In this document: positions 10,032-64,000 of the stretch, one piece after another
Position numbering within the stretch: the stretch's first letter is position 1
Layout: each line of letters starts with the position of its first letter
From: Paracoccaceae bacterium
GTDB taxonomy: Bacteria; Pseudomonadota; Alphaproteobacteria; Rhodobacterales; Rhodobacteraceae
Direction: 5' to 3'
Length of the DNA stretch: 64,000 bases
Assembly: GCA_027489355.1 (NCBI GenBank)
Contig: JAIXZY010000079.1
Coordinates: 82,936 to 146,935, forward strand
The notes under the pieces: generated by a model
Databases searched by the model: none
What the model was told of the DNA's origin: nothing
The model's input: only the letters and a program-made list of their open reading frames with translations
Position numbers and translations under genes: made by a program

Positions 10032-12757
10032 CCGCCCCGCCGCCGGTGGTGCGGACGCAGGGGCTGGGGCTGCGCTATGGCAAAGTCGCGGCGCTGGACG
10101 ATGTGACGGTTGATCTGCCAGCGGGCTGTGTCGTCGGGTTGATCGGGCCGGACGGGGTGGGAAAATCCAGCCTCCTGGCGTTGATTGCGGGCGCGCGCAA
10201 GATGCAGGAAGGCACTTTGGAAGTGCTGGGTGGGGACATGGCCCGTGCCGGTCACCGCGCTCGGATCTGCCCACGCATCGCCTACATGCCGCAGGGGCTG
10301 GGGCGGAACCTTTATCCAACCCTCTCCGTGCGCGAGAATGTCGAATTCTTCGGCAGGCTGTTCGGCGAGACGCGGGCCGAACGTGACCGCCGCATCGCCG
10401 ATTTGCTGGCCGCGACCGACCTTGATGCCTTTGCCGACCGGCCTGCAGCCAAGCTTTCGGGTGGGATGAAGCAGAAACTGGGCTTGTGCTGCGCGCTGAT
10501 CCATGACCCCGACCTGTTGATCCTGGACGAGCCCACGACCGGCGTGGACCCGTTGTCGCGGCGCGAGTTCTGGGCGCTGATCGAGCGTATCCGCGCCAGC
10601 CGTCCGGGCATGAGCCTTCTGGTCTCCAGCGCCTACATGGAGGAAGCGGCAGGCTTCGATCATCTGGTGGCGATGGATGCCGGGCGCGTTCTGGCAACCG
10701 GCAGCCCGGCCGAACTGATGGCGCGCACCGGGGCGGCCGATCTGGATGCAACTTTCATCGCGCTTTTGCCCGATGACGAACGCGCGCACCACCGCGAGCT
10801 GATCATCCCGCCGCGCGGCGCCGATCTGGAAACCGGCCCGGTCATCGAGGCAGAGAATCTGTCGGTCCGCTTTGGCAATTTCACCGCCGTTGACGACGTG
10901 AGCTTCCGCATCCAGCCGGGGGAAATCTTCGGCTTCCTCGGATCGAACGGCTGCGGCAAGACCACCACGATGAAGGTGCTGACAGGCCTTCTGGAACCTT
11001 CCGAGGGCAGCACGCGGATCTATGGCCAGAAGGTCGATGCCCGCGACATGGCCACGCGCAAGCGCATCGGCTACATGACGCAGTCGTTCTCGCTCTACTC
11101 CGAGCTGACGGTGCGGCAGAACCTTGAACTTCACGCGCGCCTGTTCGACATGGCCCCTGCCGAGATCGCGCCGCGCATCGAAGAGCTCGCCACGCGCTTT
11201 GACCTGATCGACGTGCTGGACAGCCTGCCCTTGCGCCTGCCGCTTGGCATCCGGCAGCGTCTGTCCCTCGCGGTGGCGCTGATCCACCGGCCCGAGATCC
11301 TGATCCTTGACGAGCCGACCTCGGGCGTCGATCCGGTGGCGCGGGATGCGTTCTGGCAGGCGCTGATCGATCTGTCGCGCAAGGACGGGGTCACGATCTT
11401 CCTGTCCACCCATTACATGTCCGAGGCCGCGCGCTGCGACCGCATCTCGCTGATGCATGCGGGCCGCGTGCTGGTCTCAGGCACGCCCGAAGCGATCCGG
11501 GCCGAGGCGGGCTCGGCCACGCTGGATGATTCCTTCGTCCATCACCTGCGCAAGGCCGCGAACCCGGACGGACCGGCCCCTGCGGCACCAGTCAGCCTTG
11601 AGACGGCTGCACTTGCCCGACCGCAGGGCCGCCTCAGCCTGGCCCGCCTGCTCAGCTTTTCCTGGCGCGAGGCGCTGGAACTCCGCCGCGATCCGATCCG
11701 GCTGACATTGGCCAGCCTGGGCAGCGTGATCCTGATGATCGTGCTGGGCTATGGCATCTCGATGGATGTTCAGAACCTGAAATTCGCCGTTCTCGACCTC
11801 GACCAGACCATCGCCAGCCAGTCCTATGTCAACGATCTGGCCGGGTCGCGGTATTTCGATGAACAACCACCCCTCGTCAGTCACGAGGATCTGGATGCGC
11901 GGATGCGCGCGGGCGAGATCAGCCTGGCGCTGGAAATCCCGCCCGGTTTTGCGGCGGATGTCGAACGTGGCCGCCCGGTGGAAGTCGGCGCCTGGTTCGA
12001 TGGCGCCATGCCGATGCGCGCCGATACCGTGCGCGGCTATGTGCTGGGGATGCACCAGCACTGGCTGACCGAGCAGATGCGCCAGATCTACGGCGACAGG
12101 GCCGTGGCCGGCACCTACGACCTTGAGGTGCGCTATCGTTACAACCCCGATGTGGAAAGTCTGGCAGCCATGGTGCCGGCGGTCATCCCTCTCCTGCTGA
12201 TGCTGATCCCGGCGATGCTGGCGGTGCTGTCGGTTGCGCGCGAGAAGGAGAGCGGATCGATCGTCAACCTCTACGTGACCCCCGCGCGGCGGCTGGAATT
12301 CCTGTTGGGCAAGCAGCTGCCTTATGCCCTTCTGGGGTTTCTGAATTTCGGCTTGTTGCTGGCCCTGGCAGTGTTCGTTTTCGGCGTGCCGGTGCAGGGC
12401 AGCCTTCTTGCGCTATCGGCGGGCGCGGCGGTCTTTGTCGTGCTGTCCACGGGGATGGGCCTTCTGATTTCCGCCTTCACCCGCAGCCAGGTCACGGCGC
12501 TGTTCTTTACCGCGCTCGCCACGCTGATTCCGGCCGTGCAATATGGCGGGATCATCGACCCGGTCTCGTCGCTTGATGGCATGGGCCGGGTGATCGGCGA
12601 GATTTTCCCGACCAGCCACTTCGTCACCATCTCGCGCGGGGCCTTTGCGAAGGCGCTGGATCTTGGCGACCTCGGCGCATCGTTCCTGCCGTTGCTGGCG
12701 CTGGTGCCGGTGCTGGTTGCCCTTGGCGCGGTCTTCGTCCGCAAGCAGGAGAAATAG
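10028..12757 (+). CDS. rbbA: RbbA/YhiH-like ABC transporter: two ATPase domains fused to a permease
   Basis: This 909-aa protein carries three modules. The first nucleotide-binding domain has P-loop GPDGVGKSS near residue 40, signature [11 protein letters not shown] and [11 protein letters not shown]. The second has P-loop GSNGCGKTT near 307, a degenerate signature ([12 protein letters not shown]) and [11 protein letters not shown]. From about 540 there is an ABC-2 type permease with a large extracytoplasmic loop and a cluster of membrane helices ([19 protein letters not shown] onward). This matches E. coli RbbA/YhiH, and the gene order membrane-fusion protein - RbbA - YhhJ is the same. It is probably a multidrug-type exporter; substrate unknown. 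Confidence 0.92.
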
Positions 12758-54662: not shown

Positions 54663-54829
54663 CGAAGGGAATCACACCTCGTACCGACGCACGAAGCCGG
54701 GTGACTGGAGCGACTGGAGGAGGGGAAACCTAGATCGTCAAGGCTTGGTGGTCCGGTCTCGACCACCGGAGAACTGTTGCGAAGCCACCGCGGGGCCGAT
54801 CACGACACGCTTTTCGGGATTTTTTTGAT

Positions 54830-54853
54830 TGGTCGGAGCGAGAGGATTCGAAC
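54830..54853 (-). other. tRNA 3'-end fragment: left attachment site of the integrated element
   Basis: On the minus strand the 24 bases read GTTCGAATCCTCTCGCTCCG followed by ACCA: a T-loop (GTTCGAATCC), the 3' acceptor strand GCTCCGA and the CCA end. The rest of a tRNA does not follow, so this is a fragment. The acceptor sequence would fit a TCGGAGC-starting tRNA such as proline in Alphaproteobacteria, but the isoacceptor is not certain. Given the orientation, an intact tRNA should stand at the other end of the element, right of the window. Confidence 0.8.
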
Positions 54854-54921
54854 TTCTTAGGAAGGCTTGAATCCGTTGTTTTATTGATCTTTTCGCGGAC
54901 TATCTTGCGGAATCGGGCGAT

Positions 54922-54956
54922 TTTACCATACAAACTGCCATACATTTACCATACAA
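54922..54956 (+). repeat. CCATACA direct repeats next to att and integrase
   Basis: TTTACCATACAA occurs twice exactly (54922-54933 and 54945-54956), with a third CCATACA between them (54938-54944). The core heptamer therefore recurs at 12- and 11-bp steps, about one helical turn each. The array sits between the tRNA fragment and the integrase ATG, a typical place for integrase arm or excisionase sites and for integrase autoregulation. Confidence 0.75.
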
Positions 54957-54967
54957 GGCCGCTCGTA

Positions 54968-56587
54968 ATGCCCCCGCGCCGCACCAAGAATCCCGACCTG
55001 ATAGACCATGTAATGAAGACGCCCGGCGGGGCGTACAAGTATGCCCGCCGGGTCCCGAAGGCCATGCAAGGCCTCATCGGAAGGACGGTGTGGGATTTCT
55101 CGCTGGGCAGTGAGATCAACGCCGCCATAGCGCGGGCGCAGGCCTACACTGCCGAACACGACGCGCTGATAGCGACTCTCTCCACGCCTGATGGACGCGA
55201 AAAGCTCGCGCGGCGTCAGGAGCAAAGCGTGGGAGCGGCGACCCTCACCCTTCCCCTGACCCTTGCCCGCGAGGCAAGCAAGCCTGACGCCAGCGAACTC
55301 CTTAAGCTGGCGGCTGACGCCGCCGCGTCGCAAATCGCCCCCGGCCTGCAGCTCGACGTGTCCGCGTCAGTGTGGAGAAGGACTGAGGAGGCCATGCAGC
55401 AAGCCCGCACTCTGCCTGCCAAGGCCGAACGGGACAAGCTTGCGCTATTCGCTGCGTATGCCTTCGGTGATCGGTCCTACCTTGAAGCGCAGGCGGTTGA
55501 TGACCCATTCGGCAATATGCTGGTTGAAACGCTGCAACCGACCCGGCCTGTAGACAAGACCGGGGCTATGTTCTGGGATGCATACAAGGCAGCGCTGGAC
55601 GCAAGGCTTGCCGAACTCATGCCGGAAACCCGGGTCGATAGCTCTCTCTGTATACTAAACTTGATGGAAGTATACGCGGCGACCAAGCGACCGCAGACCC
55701 GCCGGGCGTACATCGACAAGGTACGCCGCTTGACCGATGCGCAGGGCAACCACCCACCGACCTACTACACGAAGGACCGCCTTCAAGAGCACCGCGATAT
55801 GCTCGTGAAGGAAGGTGTTGGAGCGCCAACAATTGCAAAGCACTTCGAAACGCTCAAGACGCTTTGGCGATGGGCCGTCCGCGAGAAGAGTGCCTTGGCT
55901 GGCCTGTCCTTCCCCGACATCGTTATGCCGGACATTACGACCACGGTAGAGGATACCCGGTGGCAGGCGTTCGATGATGATCAGATCAAGCAGGTGTGGC
56001 GCTTGCTGAATGACGCTTGGGGGCCCGAAGGGGACAGTAAGCTGTCGCCCTCGCGCCGGGCTGCGTTCCTGATGGGCTTCCGAGTGCTATTGCACACAGG
56101 AATGCGCCCTGTGGAACTGTTCTTCCTGAACGCTGATAGCGCGAAGAACGGCGAGCTCCACATCAAGTATACCAAGACCGCCACTGCCCGGCGCATTCCG
56201 CTCGCGAAAGCTTTGTCTGACCTTCCAGGCTTCCTAGCGGCTGGCGGTTTCGCCGCCGAACTGGAAGCCGGGAAAACCGCCATTCGGCAAGGAAAGGTCT
56301 ATGGACAGGCAACCAAGCCGGACTCCCTCGCTCGCGCCTTTACGTCCGCCTTTTCCAGCGTGATCCGGGCGGGTGGCCTGACGAATGATCGTCACGTGCT
56401 TTATAGCACGAAGGACTCGTTGGTGGACCGGCTGCAGCGCCAAGGCGCGACAGATGATGTGATCCGGGGAATCATTGGACATGTGGGCGGGCAGGGTAAA
56501 CTGCGCCACTACAAGACACCGCTGGGGCAGTCGCAGCACGGCATGGCGCAGATGCGGAAGGCACTGGACGCCATCGCGTACTGGTAA
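54968..56587 (+). CDS. Tyrosine recombinase (integrase) with altered catalytic boxes
   Basis: This 539-aa protein has an N-terminal DNA-binding part (GGAYKYARRVPKAMQGLIG), a SAM-like core-binding region around 260-320, and a C-terminal catalytic domain. Catalytic residues visible are Arg380 (HTGMRPVEL), Lys403 (KYTKTATARRIPL), His505 (IIGHVGG) and Tyr515 (LRHYKTP). Box II, normally HxxR, reads Tyr479-S-T-Lys482-Asp483, so the second Arg and neighbouring His are replaced. The ATG at 54968 follows the repeat array; the track's TTG start would run through the repeats. It inserts the element at the adjacent tRNA site. Confidence 0.9.
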   Translation: MPPRRTKNPDLIDHVMKTPGGAYKYARRVPKAMQGLIGRTVWDFSLGSEINAAIARAQAYTAEHDALIATLSTPDGREKLARRQEQSVGAATLTLPLTLAREASKPDASELLKLAADAAASQIAPGLQLDVSASVWRRTEEAMQQARTLPAKAERDKLALFAAYAFGDRSYLEAQAVDDPFGNMLVETLQPTRPVDKTGAMFWDAYKAALDARLAELMPETRVDSSLCILNLMEVYAATKRPQTRRAYIDKVRRLTDAQGNHPPTYYTKDRLQEHRDMLVKEGVGAPTIAKHFETLKTLWRWAVREKSALAGLSFPDIVMPDITTTVEDTRWQAFDDDQIKQVWRLLNDAWGPEGDSKLSPSRRAAFLMGFRVLLHTGMRPVELFFLNADSAKNGELHIKYTKTATARRIPLAKALSDLPGFLAAGGFAAELEAGKTAIRQGKVYGQATKPDSLARAFTSAFSSVIRAGGLTNDRHVLYSTKDSLVDRLQRQGATDDVIRGIIGHVGGQGKLRHYKTPLGQSQHGMAQMRKALDAIAYW

Positions 56588-59995: not shown

Positions 59996-62900
59996 ATGAA
60001 CTACGCTCACGACTTCGACAAAGCCGAACCCGCAACGCCTGCCTACCAAGACGCATTCCTACACGGCGCGGAAACCGACGCTTACCGCGCCATACTTCAC
60101 CAGCCCGCCACCTTTCTGAGGGGCGTATTCTGGGCTCCGAAAGACCGCCGCAACACACAAGATGGCCAGTGGACGGCAGAGGCCCGCCCGTGGGCAGAAT
60201 GGGTGACAGGCTTCACGGTGCACCCTGTCAAGAAGCACAAGGCCGGGGATTGCATCGTCCTAGGCTCTTCGATTGGCGGGGCGCGTAAGGCCAACGCCAT
60301 GGACACCATGTACGCCATGGGGCTGGATATTGACGCGGGCTTCCCGCTGGACGCGATGCTGGACCGGCTGGAAGAGCTGGGGCTCTTCTGCATCGTCTAC
60401 ACCACGCACAGCCACGGTAAGTCTGGCCTTCAGCTCAAGCACGACGAAGTCATCCGGAAGCTGAAGATCAAGCCTTCCGAGCTGGACCTTGCACAGGTCC
60501 AGCGGTTCCTTCGCGAACACGACAAGAGCCGGTACGAAGAGTCGTTCATTGACGCCGTCACCTTCGCGGACCCGGACAAGCCAAAACGGCAGGTGAAGTC
60601 GGGAGTCGTGATCGACCTCGCCACACCTCCACTCGACAAGTACCGGCTGATTTTTCCACTGGCGGAACCGGTCAAGATCATTGACCTTGCCGAGACGCAG
60701 GCGGACGCCCTCGCGGTCTGGGAAGACAAGATCACTGGTCTTGCCCGTGAAGTACTGGACGTCCATTTTGATGTGTCCTGTACTGACCCGTCGCGACTTT
60801 TCTACACCCCGCGCCACCCCAAGGAAGCCGGTGAAGAGTGGTACGCCGCGATTGTCCGGGGTGACCCGCTGCGTTTCTTTGACGTTCCGGGCGTCAAGAA
60901 AGCGTCCTACACGGGCAGCCGCGCTACGGGCAGTCTGAACCCCTTCGAACTGGCCGGGGCTGGGGCGGATGGGGACGGTATGCCCGCATGCTTCACCCCG
61001 TCTGGGGCATCCCTAAACGAGTGGCACCGGACGGCAAAGGACCGCTTTCAGATGGCGGACCTGTTGGAAGACCTATGCAGCGACCGCATTCGCGTTGCCG
61101 GGGGCGAGGCGACGGGGCACGTCCATATCGAATGTCCATTCGAACACGAGCACTCGACCGAAGGCGGTACAGCCTGCGACGCTAGGAATGCATTGGATAG
61201 CTCTTCCGGATACTGGACGTGGGGCTGCCACCATGACTCCTGTCAGGGACGTCGAAAGCTGGAGTTCCTTGAAGAGGCTCTGCGGCAGGGCTGGTTCAAC
61301 GAAGATCAGCTTGCGCCGGACTCGGTCTATATGCTGCCGGGCGAGGATGACTCCGTCATCGAAGACGCGCCGAAGGATCGCGCGGCGCGGCACAAGGAGC
61401 GAGCTGACAGCGTTCGCGATGACCTTCTGTCGCTGGTGGATGACTTCAACGCAGACACGTCCGAAAGCGAAATCCGCGAAGTGATCCGGCTGGCTCTGAA
61501 AGCGTCGGCAGACAAGGCGGTACAGGCGCGCCTGAAAGAGGCCGTGACAGCCAGGACTCCTATCGGGGCAAGGGCCTTCAATGACCTGTGGAAGGATGAA
61601 GCGCGCCAGAAACAGAAACCGCAGGGACGTTCCAAGCCTTCCGGGGGCATCCCGGCCAAATCCATTCATGACGACTTCGCGGATCAGGTCGAATATGCAC
61701 AGCGCCGGATCGTGGAAGCGAATGCCGAACGCGCCCGCTTGTTTCAGTTTGGCGGGGCATATGCCACGGCTGACGCCGTCCGGCACCGCGTCCGCCTGAT
61801 CGAAGATCAGCCCACCATGTTCACCGCCCTCCACAAGATCACGCGATGGGAGAAGGACCGGGACAGCGACGGGAACACACAGGGAGTTGCCCCGCCCGAG
61901 ACTGTGGTCAAGGCCGTCTTCACGGATCACGACTTCGCAGACACCCTGCCCGAGCTTTTGGCGGTCCCCTCGACTCCATTCTTTGACGCCGAAGGTCGGC
62001 TGGTGGACGAAGATGGGTACCACGCCGGTGCGAAGGTGTACTTGGCGAAGGGTGACTTGGTACTGCCCAGCGTGAGCCGGGAACCGACTGCGATAGAGGT
62101 GGCAGAGGCCAAGCGCCTAATCGTGGAAGAGGTACTGGCGGACTTCCCGCTGGGCGGAATGGACCGTGCGCAGATCGTCGGAACGTTGGCAGGGGAGAAT
62201 GCAGACCACGCCCACGCTGTAACCCATGCCGTTGCTATGACCCTGCTACCGTTCTGCCGGGACATGATCGCGGGACCCACGCCCGGGCACGTGTATACGA
62301 AGCCGGGACCGGGTACCGGGGCGTCATTGCTGGTGGACGTGCTGACTACGATTGCGGGCGGTTCGCCTGCCCCCGCCATGACCTTTCCGACACGCGCCGA
62401 AGAGGTGGGCAAAACCCTGTCGGCTGCGCTGGCGGAAGGTGCGCCAGTGATCCTGTTCGACAACATCGGACAGGCTATCGCGAGTAGCGAGCTTGCGTCC
62501 GCCATGACAGGGACCATGTACCAAGCCCGCATTCTGGGGAAGACGCAGCTCGTTATGGTCCCGGTTCGGTCGGTATGGGCCTTCACGGCGAACAACATCG
62601 AAGCCAGCCGGGAAATCCTGCGGCGGTTCGTGTTGATTCCGCTGGACGCTGGCGTGCCTGACCCGGAACAGCGCAAGCCGGAAAACGGGTGGCAACACCC
62701 GAACCTGCGGCAGTGGGTGACAGACAACCGCCCCGCCCTTGTGTGGGCCTGCCTGACACTTATTCAGAACTGGGTAGCCCGGGGCATGGAACGGCAGAAA
62801 GTCGTCTCTCTGGCCTCATATGAAGACTGGGCAGGGGTAATGGGTGGTATCCTCACCGCCGCCGGTTTCCACGGCTTCCTTGATGGTCAGGCGGAAGAGC

Positions 62901-63277
62901 GGGCAAAGGCCACGGACGCCACGGAAGACGGTCTGGCGCAGCTTGTGCAGATCATGGCGGGGTATCCGGACGGAACAGTGTTCCGGCCCGGCGGGACCGG
63001 GAGGTATGATGGGAAACCGACAGTCAGCGTCATGGCAATCCTGAACGGCGACGAACGGGCCAAGATGGAACCCGGGGACAAACCCGACCCTATCCAGATC
63101 AACGGATGGGGTTACAAGGACTTTGATGGGCAGTACACCAATGCCACGCGCATCGGTCGGGGAATGAAGAACCTCGCCCGGAAGCCGTACCAAATCGGCG
63201 GAAAGGTGGTCACGTTCGCGGAAGCGACGGACAGTAAGGCCGGTACTTCAGTCTACCGGATGACCAAGACAGGTTGA
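59996..63277 (+). CDS. Primase-polymerase / ATPase replication protein of the element
   Basis: This 1093-aa protein starts with an archaeo-eukaryotic-type primase (prim-pol) domain: catalytic GLDIDAG (Asp111, Asp113), TTHSHGKSG, and DKYRLIFPLAEPV, with TDPSRLFYTPRHP near 265-275. A CHC2-like zinc ribbon follows at about 375-416 (HIECPFEHEH ... GCHHDSCQG). The C-terminal half is an AAA/SF3-style ATPase with P-loop region GPGTGAS (771-777), Walker-B-like VILFDNIG and RRFVLIPLD. The P-loop Lys is replaced by Ala. It likely primes and unwinds DNA at the repeat-rich origin just downstream. Confidence 0.85.
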   Translation: MNYAHDFDKAEPATPAYQDAFLHGAETDAYRAILHQPATFLRGVFWAPKDRRNTQDGQWTAEARPWAEWVTGFTVHPVKKHKAGDCIVLGSSIGGARKANAMDTMYAMGLDIDAGFPLDAMLDRLEELGLFCIVYTTHSHGKSGLQLKHDEVIRKLKIKPSELDLAQVQRFLREHDKSRYEESFIDAVTFADPDKPKRQVKSGVVIDLATPPLDKYRLIFPLAEPVKIIDLAETQADALAVWEDKITGLAREVLDVHFDVSCTDPSRLFYTPRHPKEAGEEWYAAIVRGDPLRFFDVPGVKKASYTGSRATGSLNPFELAGAGADGDGMPACFTPSGASLNEWHRTAKDRFQMADLLEDLCSDRIRVAGGEATGHVHIECPFEHEHSTEGGTACDARNALDSSSGYWTWGCHHDSCQGRRKLEFLEEALRQGWFNEDQLAPDSVYMLPGEDDSVIEDAPKDRAARHKERADSVRDDLLSLVDDFNADTSESEIREVIRLALKASADKAVQARLKEAVTARTPIGARAFNDLWKDEARQKQKPQGRSKPSGGIPAKSIHDDFADQVEYAQRRIVEANAERARLFQFGGAYATADAVRHRVRLIEDQPTMFTALHKITRWEKDRDSDGNTQGVAPPETVVKAVFTDHDFADTLPELLAVPSTPFFDAEGRLVDEDGYHAGAKVYLAKGDLVLPSVSREPTAIEVAEAKRLIVEEVLADFPLGGMDRAQIVGTLAGENADHAHAVTHAVAMTLLPFCRDMIAGPTPGHVYTKPGPGTGASLLVDVLTTIAGGSPAPAMTFPTRAEEVGKTLSAALAEGAPVILFDNIGQAIASSELASAMTGTMYQARILGKTQLVMVPVRSVWAFTANNIEASREILRRFVLIPLDAGVPDPEQRKPENGWQHPNLRQWVTDNRPALVWACLTLIQNWVARGMERQKVVSLASYEDWAGVMGGILTAAGFHGFLDGQAEERAKATDATEDGLAQLVQIMAGYPDGTVFRPGGTGRYDGKPTVSVMAILNGDERAKMEPGDKPDPIQINGWGYKDFDGQYTNATRIGRGMKNLARKPYQIGGKVVTFAEATDSKAGTSVYRMTKTG

Positions 63278-63284
63278 GGGATAG

Positions 63285-63302
63285 GGCCGCCGTCAGGCGG
63301 CC
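63285..63302 (+). terminator. Terminator after prim-pol (GGCCGCC-gtca-GGCGGCC)
   Basis: A perfect 7-bp GC stem with a GTCA loop starts 7 bp after the stop codon and is followed by TTCTC. It has the same architecture as the integrase-end hairpin. Confidence 0.7.
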
Positions 63303-63312
63303 TTCTCATTCT

Positions 63313-63590
63313 GCAGGGGTGCGCAGGGGTAGCCTTCGGAATTTCACATTTGTTTTCAATAGGTACCGGGGTAGCGGGGGTTGCGGGGTAGCGATGGGGT
63401 GAGCCCTATAGAAATACAGACATTTCCCTCTCAATGCCCTCACCCTTTCCCAAGAAAATATGTTTCTTCTCTGTATGTAGATATCTATCCCAGTTACCCC
63501 AGTTACTCCTGCAAGAATGCCATAAAGTATTGCAAGGCTTAGGAAAACTGGTGCTGGGGTAGAACTCCGTAACCCCAGCTATACCCCTGC
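63313..63590. other. Iteron-like array and AT-rich core: candidate replication origin
   Basis: GGGGT(A/G)GC-like repeats occur at least six times on the plus strand between 63313 and 63404 (for example GCAGGGGTGC, GCAGGGGTAGCC, GGGGTAGC at 63368 and 63385, GGGGTTGC, GGGGTGAGC). Four related copies lie between 63494 and 63590, mostly inverted (TTACCCC, GTAACCCCAGC, TACCCCTGC; GCTGGGGTA is direct), including a GCTGGGGT/ACCCCAGC dyad. Between the two clusters lies an AT-rich stretch (63405-63490). The array follows the prim-pol gene directly, the place expected for an origin it recognises. No gene is seen in 63278-63690. Confidence 0.7.
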
Positions 63591-63690: not shown

Positions 63691-64000
63691 ATGAAAGTAG
63701 TCGCATCTTGCCTCGCAACTCTTATTGCGCTGAGCGGTCCCGCGCTCGCCCTTGACGGAAGGCTGGTAGGCTTAGGAGGTTCGGACACTGTATTCGTGTG
63801 GAAGAGCGCAGATGCCCAGTCCGAAGCCATGTCCCTCATTAATGCAGGTGTTCATCAAACGAACCCAGCGCTACTTATGCCCTTGCTTGCCTGCATCGTG
63901 CCGTCCGGAACACAGGCTATCATCACGGACGCTGGTTTCGCGACCCACGACATCCTAGTCACGTCCGGCGACAGCGCCGGGTGTAGAGGAAACATCCCCA
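63691..64000 (+). CDS. Secreted protein, N-terminal part (runs off the window)
   Basis: This is missing from the ORF track. ATG 63691 has AAAGG 8 nt upstream. The first 103 codons are open and give a signal peptide (MKVVASCLATLIALSGPALA, then LD) and a mature region with two cysteines (LLACIV and AGCRG). No family recognised. It belongs to the element's right part; a cargo or envelope function is possible. Confidence 0.6.
   Translation, partial: MKVVASCLATLIALSGPALALDGRLVGLGGSDTVFVWKSADAQSEAMSLINAGVHQTNPALLMPLLACIVPSGTQAIITDAGFATHDILVTSGDSAGCRGNIP

Follow-up and report, generated by a model that had tools for sequence, protein, structure and literature searches.

The C-termini of the replication proteins SaPI Rep and Cch2 recognize iterons which lie directly downstream of their own genes, and SaPI Rep apparently forms two hexamers; the domain of Cch is DUF927, and Cch is related to SaPIbov1 Rep (PMC7581432). 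The origins of Gram-negative PICIs, which were tested on plasmids, consist of an AT-rich region with an iteron set on either side. They are located immediately 3' of the replication gene, a sometimes fused primase-rep gene, and their iteron sequences have been given for each element (PMC6092414). In satellite P4 the alpha protein is a primase-helicase fusion which acts with an iteron-containing ori, and crr follows directly behind the alpha terminator, about 4.7 kb away from ori. In contrast, the iteron plasmids of the Pi, RepA and TrfA type employ a winged-helix Rep without a primase-helicase.

The locus described here was found in a 64-kb stretch of DNA, in the following called the window. 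It is best read as a Rep-ori module of the P4/PICI type in a satellite-like island of Rhodobacterales which is integrated at a tRNA-Pro gene. As in the Gram-negative PICIs, an iteron array lies directly 3' of the candidate initiator gene and its two iteron sets flank an AT-rich region. Differences to the PICIs are the host order, Rhodobacterales, and the family of the initiator candidate, which belongs to phrog_10537 and has no Pfam match. Since this protein is a primase-helicase, the locus differs from the iteron plasmids.

The iteron array downstream of the prim-pol gene

The probable initiator (Rep) is a prim-pol/SF3-like helicase of 1093 aa, encoded on the plus strand (59996..63277; phrog_10537, E = 5e-253). 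Its gene is followed by a terminator-like hairpin (63284..63310, plus strand; GGCCGCC..GGCGGCC, then T-rich), and similar hairpins were found 3' of the prim-pol genes of the sister loci L061 and L080. The array starts 36 bp past the stop codon at 63277, behind this hairpin, just as P4 crr lies behind the alpha terminator. The array stretch is non-coding; it is bounded by the prim-pol stop on one side and, at 63691, by a short frame resembling a secreted protein on the other, and the contig ends 410 bp beyond the array.

Ten GGGGT cores were located within 63316-63587 (268 bp), with starts at 63316, 63326, 63368, 63377, 63385, 63396 and 63556 on the plus strand and at 63496, 63572 and 63583 on the minus strand. 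They form the densest GGGGT cluster of the window. In 2000 dinucleotide shuffles of the 293-bp array segment, GGGGT occurred 1.7 times on average and at most seven times as compared to the ten copies observed, and any best 5-mer reached ten copies in 8 of the 2000 shuffles. Thus, the GGGGT density of the array is not due to chance. Because the iteron is degenerate, the array does not stand out from the G+C-rich window by exact 7-mer count; of 786 comparison windows placed elsewhere within 20 kb, 59 reach its four copies. For this reason motif refinement and geometry were used, and the strong evidence for the array is comparative.

When degenerate copies are included, the array comprises 12 units of a 9-bp iteron with a consensus of roughly GC(A/G)GGGGT(A/G/T). 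The left half, on the plus strand, consists of two outer iterons (GCAGGGGTG, 63313-63321; GCAGGGGTA, 63323-63331) and four inner iterons (63365..63401; starts 63365, 63374, 63382 and 63393, spacing 8-11 bp). The AT-rich core, at about 63393-63483, has a GC content of 42% versus 61% in the surrounding 10 kb, and 0.9% of the windows of equal length are as AT-rich; the stretch 63402..63485 is proposed as the melting site. On its right side follow three inverted inner iterons, 9 bp apart, on the minus strand (TATCCCAGT, TACCCCAGT and TACTCCTGC, 63486-63512; starts 63486, 63495 and 63504), among which only the middle unit contains GGGGT. A single flipped iteron on the plus strand (GCTGGGGTA, 63553..63561), which is usual at this place in sister arrays, and two inverted outer iterons on the minus strand (AACCCCAGC, 63571-63579; TACCCCTGC, 63582-63590) complete the array. 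An earlier, sequence-only reading had described about ten GGGGTA-type repeats, mainly direct on the left and mainly inverted on the right of an AT-rich stretch, directly after the prim-pol gene. This description agrees with the present data: the exact GGGGTA hexamer is present in six of the ten cores (6 of the 16 copies in the window), and the GGGGT orientation is 6 forward/0 reverse on the left and 1 forward/3 reverse on the right.

Arrays and iteron spacing in sister loci

A family search yielded 33 of 397 genomes with a related protein, the genome of the window included, and scans with an alignment as query, which found 15 and 13 loci, gave further chromosomal and viral ones. When the prim-pol alone served as query, simple protein-level scans of the genome contigs and the viral contigs gave no match. 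Plasmid records contained only distant relatives of prim-pol. The iteron sites were located by one seed-and-refine procedure which was identical for every locus. At nearly all chromosomal loci with related prim-pols an array lies 3' of the gene or overlaps its 3' end, and in about 20 cases no other 350-bp stretch of the whole locus is as dense in repeats. The sequence-only reading had regarded a lack of repeats in sister elements with the same prim-pol as the case that would speak against it; arrays are present in L061 and in most chromosomal relatives. In L061 from Gemmobacter aquatilis, the nearest relative (prim-pol 67-68% identical), the array is found at the same place with the iteron GCAGGGGT.

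The iteron sequence differs from locus to locus. Examples are GCGGGAGT (L036), GGGTGACGAT, TGGGGCGAC (L050) and GACCCCA...; further iterons are TGCGGGGAG (L037), GGGTGACGA (L039), TGGCGGGTG (L040), AGGTGGTAG (L041), AGGGCGGA (L051 and L071), GACCCCAG (L053), GTGCTAGGG (L055), TGGACAAA (L063), ATTTTAGGA (L072) and GCGGGGGT (L080). The arrays of L038, L054 and L065 are weak, and none was found after the genes of L042 and L062. In L045-L049 the array is found at the 3' terminus of the open frame for a primase-helicase, which is of the Toprim type in L045, or within this terminus; one piece of DNA may thus be both protein code and origin. Unlike in the window, the cores of L045-L048 and L055 are not AT-rich.

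In about two dozen related islands the arrays have a common spacing with differing iteron sequences: direct iterons at intervals of 8-9 bp precede a core of ~90 bp, which is followed by inverted iterons, one flipped copy and further outer copies. Counted from the prim-pol stop, the sites (> direct, < inverted) are >47 >89 >98 >106 / <206 <215 <224 >277 <291 <302 in the window and >90 >98 >107 / <207 <216 <224 >270 <290 <301 in L036. Over the loci, which are not all independent and give modest single-locus p-values, 132 signed sites of the window and the 26 other arrays coincided within 2 bp after best shift, as compared to an average of 98.6 and a maximum of 109 in 300 permutations of gaps and signs. 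For all arrays together, mirror symmetry amounted to 106 pairs versus 71.5 (maximum 79) in permutations. For the window array taken by itself the mirror test was not significant (3 pairs, p = 0.55), and its left half lacks the flipped copy found in many sisters.

The annotated type-1 repeats of the P4 ori are positioned at 0, 10, 21, flip 43, 86 and 96, and the corresponding positions in L053 are 0, 9, 20, flip 42, 87 and 96. Used as a template over all arrays, the P4 ori gave 120 matches versus 95.3 (maximum 104) in 200 permutations, and all six positions were matched in L036, L040, L053 and L074. Window and P4 share the alpha-type primase-helicase fusion with an iteron ori, iterons in both orientations and the half-site spacing of the ori; the sequence similarity is weak, and iteron and protein sequences are unlike those of P4. 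In contrast to P4 with its distant ori and crr, the window has both halves side by side. The satellite-type origin arrangement proposed in the sequence-only reading gains support from the sister arrays and from this P4-like spacing.

The iterons of the window are more degenerate than those of L036 or L040, the left half is incomplete, and the excised form was not seen in the draft assembly. These observations would fit a relic origin in a degraded island which no longer replicates. We consider a relic unlikely, because the frames of the prim-pol (1093 aa) and of the integrase (567 aa) are intact and the array of L061 is similarly incomplete, yet its gene is intact.

The proposed integrated island

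At 54812..54856 on the minus strand an attL-like site corresponds to the 3' end of tRNA-Pro(CGG) (GGTCGGAGCGAGAGGATTCGAAC at 54831; 89% match over 45 bp). An intact tRNA-Pro copy with the same flank was detected by ARAGORN on contig C42 at 6902, and in four relatives tRNA-Pro is found beside the same EamA gene. Just inside the tRNA-Pro fragment starts an intact frame for a tyrosine integrase of 567 aa (54884..56587, plus strand; PHROG integrase, E = 9.8e-14), relatives of which are encoded upstream of the prim-pols in L061, L063 and L067. Like a PICI, the element thus possesses an integrase and a specific att site, with one tRNA-Pro half in the window and the intact tRNA-Pro on C42. Repeats resembling TACCATACA flank both tRNA-Pro att copies (window 54925-54960; L057 about 1435-1467) and are perhaps integrase arm sites.

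On C42, an AbiJ/zinc-ribbon/TIR-like protein, a resolvase and a tape-measure protein are encoded left of the tRNA-Pro; the genes behind the L036 array have this order, too. We regard C44:137.8-146.9 kb and C42:1-6.9 kb as opposite ends of a single island with a size of at least about 16 kb (9.2 kb in the window and 6.9 kb on C42). A proof via the empty integration site failed, as the gene on the left of the att site, an sbcD-like one, does not adjoin tRNA-Pro in a relative; the C44-C42 join is therefore drawn only from the att sequence and the synteny with L036. Whole-locus tblastx was too noisy and was used only for the collinearity of L061 and L036.

The AbiJ-type gene of C42 (L059, 544-1965) encodes a fusion of an AbiJ N-terminal domain, a DnaG-type zinc ribbon and a nucleoside deoxyribosyltransferase/TIR-like domain, which also occurs in L036 and is probably a defence gene. 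The sister element L065 carries at 10096-11175 a homologue of the PADLOC 'beta' family (E = 8e-43), probably a satellite P4 beta protein. PICIs are elements of about 10-20 kb which lack a complete set of structural genes and carry a regulator of this or a similar kind as named below. Among the small genes of the element no Pfam or PHROG match to an AlpA or Rpr/Stl type regulator was obtained; an alpA/rpr-type regulator, terS and a helper were not identified for the window element. Profile searches of the available genes, part of the element being missing from the contig, gave no match to the P2-hijacking genes psu, delta and sid.

The tail tape-measure protein (PF06791/PF09718, PHROG tail) lies at the far end of the island (L059 on C42, 3038-6586), as it does in L061 (12573-15536), L036, L063, L065, L067 and L072. 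No capsid or tail-shaft genes were seen near the tape-measure genes, and L061 has a Neck1/tail-completion-like frame. The tape-measure protein could enable the island to alter the tail of its helper.

The prim-pol shares 47-54% identity, along most of its sequence, with proteins of the about 148-kb Rhodobacterales phages RcXuper (54%), RpAliso, DSS3P8 and MD18, and about 30% with those of the phiCbK-like giants. These homologues may point to gene exchange of the islands with large lytic phages, which are possibly helpers. Since the prim-pol also occurs in large phages and a tape-measure gene lies at what is probably the opposite end of the element, the array might also be regarded as the origin of a temperate phage or phage-plasmid. 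This is improbable, since capsid, portal and terminase were not identified by profile searches of the window part, C42, L036 and L061, and since the large-phage homologues are not accompanied by such an array. No array was found beside the prim-pol genes of Rhodobacter phage RcXuper, RpAliso, Caulobacter phage phiCbK and the viral contigs L076-L078 and L081-L083; L079 has no more than a direct repeat of a different type. The element is likely a satellite.

Prim-pol and proposed recognition of the iterons

The prim-pol comprises an AEP domain with a Zn finger (about residues 1-450), a helicase (about 700-955) and a C-terminal domain (about 956-1093). It has no Pfam match and no Pfam-recognized helicase domain, and matches the P4-family primase_Cterm model TIGR01613 weakly (17 bits, cutoff 109). 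The best PDB matches of the full structural model (pLDDT 81, pTM 0.45) were D5-type primase-helicases including that of SaPI5 (7ola, E = 8e-8). A Walker A-like motif at residues 769-777 (KPGPGTGAS) lacks the usual lysine; K769, G775 and A776 are invariant in nine aligned proteins. In a Foldseek search the C-terminal domain modelled alone (pLDDT 82) had no significant match to a known (DNA-binding) fold, and the assignment of a winged-helix domain was therefore dropped.

Iteron similarity correlated with the similarity of the helicase/C-terminal half of the prim-pol (Mantel r = 0.46, p = 0.0004; r = 0.47 given the N-half) and not with that of the N-terminal primase half (r = -0.07, p = 0.70). 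In a restricted Mantel test the correlation was equal for the helicase core and the last 120 residues; since these are inseparable, the proposed iteron recognition is placed no more precisely than in the C-terminal half. The first 450 residues of L063, L065 and L067 are 70-76% identical to those of the window prim-pol and are combined with another helicase (DUF927 in L063). In L063 and L067, with primase halves 71-76% identical and differing helicases, the iterons are unrelated to those of the window. In L080 the primase half is unrelated, helicase and C-terminus are 59 and 50% identical, and the iteron GCGGGGGT is kept; L043, L054, L055 and L045, like L080, have the helicase and not the primase in common with the window. 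The prim-pol is a chimera-prone fusion whose primase part and helicase/C-terminal half have different histories.

Short repeats can also serve regulators or terminases, but an operator, partition or packaging site for another protein of the element is very unlikely, since the iterons covary with the prim-pol's own C-half, the published plan of PICI origins (PMC6092414) is that of two iteron sets which enclose an AT-rich core downstream of the rep gene, and the spacing resembles the P4 ori. By analogy with SaPI Rep, Cch2 and the Gram-negative PICIs, the array is in all probability the replication origin of the integrated, satellite-like island, recognized by the prim-pol/helicase encoded upstream, and would allow autonomous replication of the element. 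With SaPI Rep-ori and SCCmec Cch2 the module would share a self-loading helicase, iterons just 3' of its gene and C-terminal recognition (PMC7581432); the SaPI5 enzyme is among the best structural matches, and some sister elements carry DUF927 like Cch. In contrast to these systems, the element is alphaproteobacterial and its prim-pol has no helicase domain recognized by Pfam.

Following P4, SaPI and PICI, the prim-pol/helicase would bind the 9-bp iterons via its C-terminal half, and one hexamer would assemble on each mirror-image half, so that two hexamers face each other across the core. They would melt the AT-rich core and then unwind outward, while the N-terminal AEP domain would prime and a host polymerase would copy the excised circle; excision and a rise in copy number are expected on the same grounds.

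Origins of this kind are known; the novel features are the host group and the protein family, the joint swap of iteron sequence and Rep C-half, and the constant geometry across helicase families. In the text of the open-access literature neither the swap nor the constant geometry was found described. The signed iteron spacing (outer set, flipped copy, inner set with intervals of 8-9 bp, core and mirror image) could be a conserved code which P4 shares with alphaproteobacterial islands whose primases are unrelated (AEP/Toprim) and whose helicases belong to different families (SF3-like, DUF927, DUF5906). Iteron sequence and recognizing Rep C-half would then be swapped jointly as a plug-in specificity module; we regard the chances of this as even. 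The locus provides a compact pair of origin and initiator from alphaproteobacterial islands of a kind that has received little description. Together with its sisters it forms a natural series of Rep-iteron pairs with swapped specificity and constant geometry, which bears on origin recognition and opening by self-loading helicases of the D5/SF3 type. Geometry instead of sequence may serve as a search rule for satellite origins which are missed by sequence similarity.
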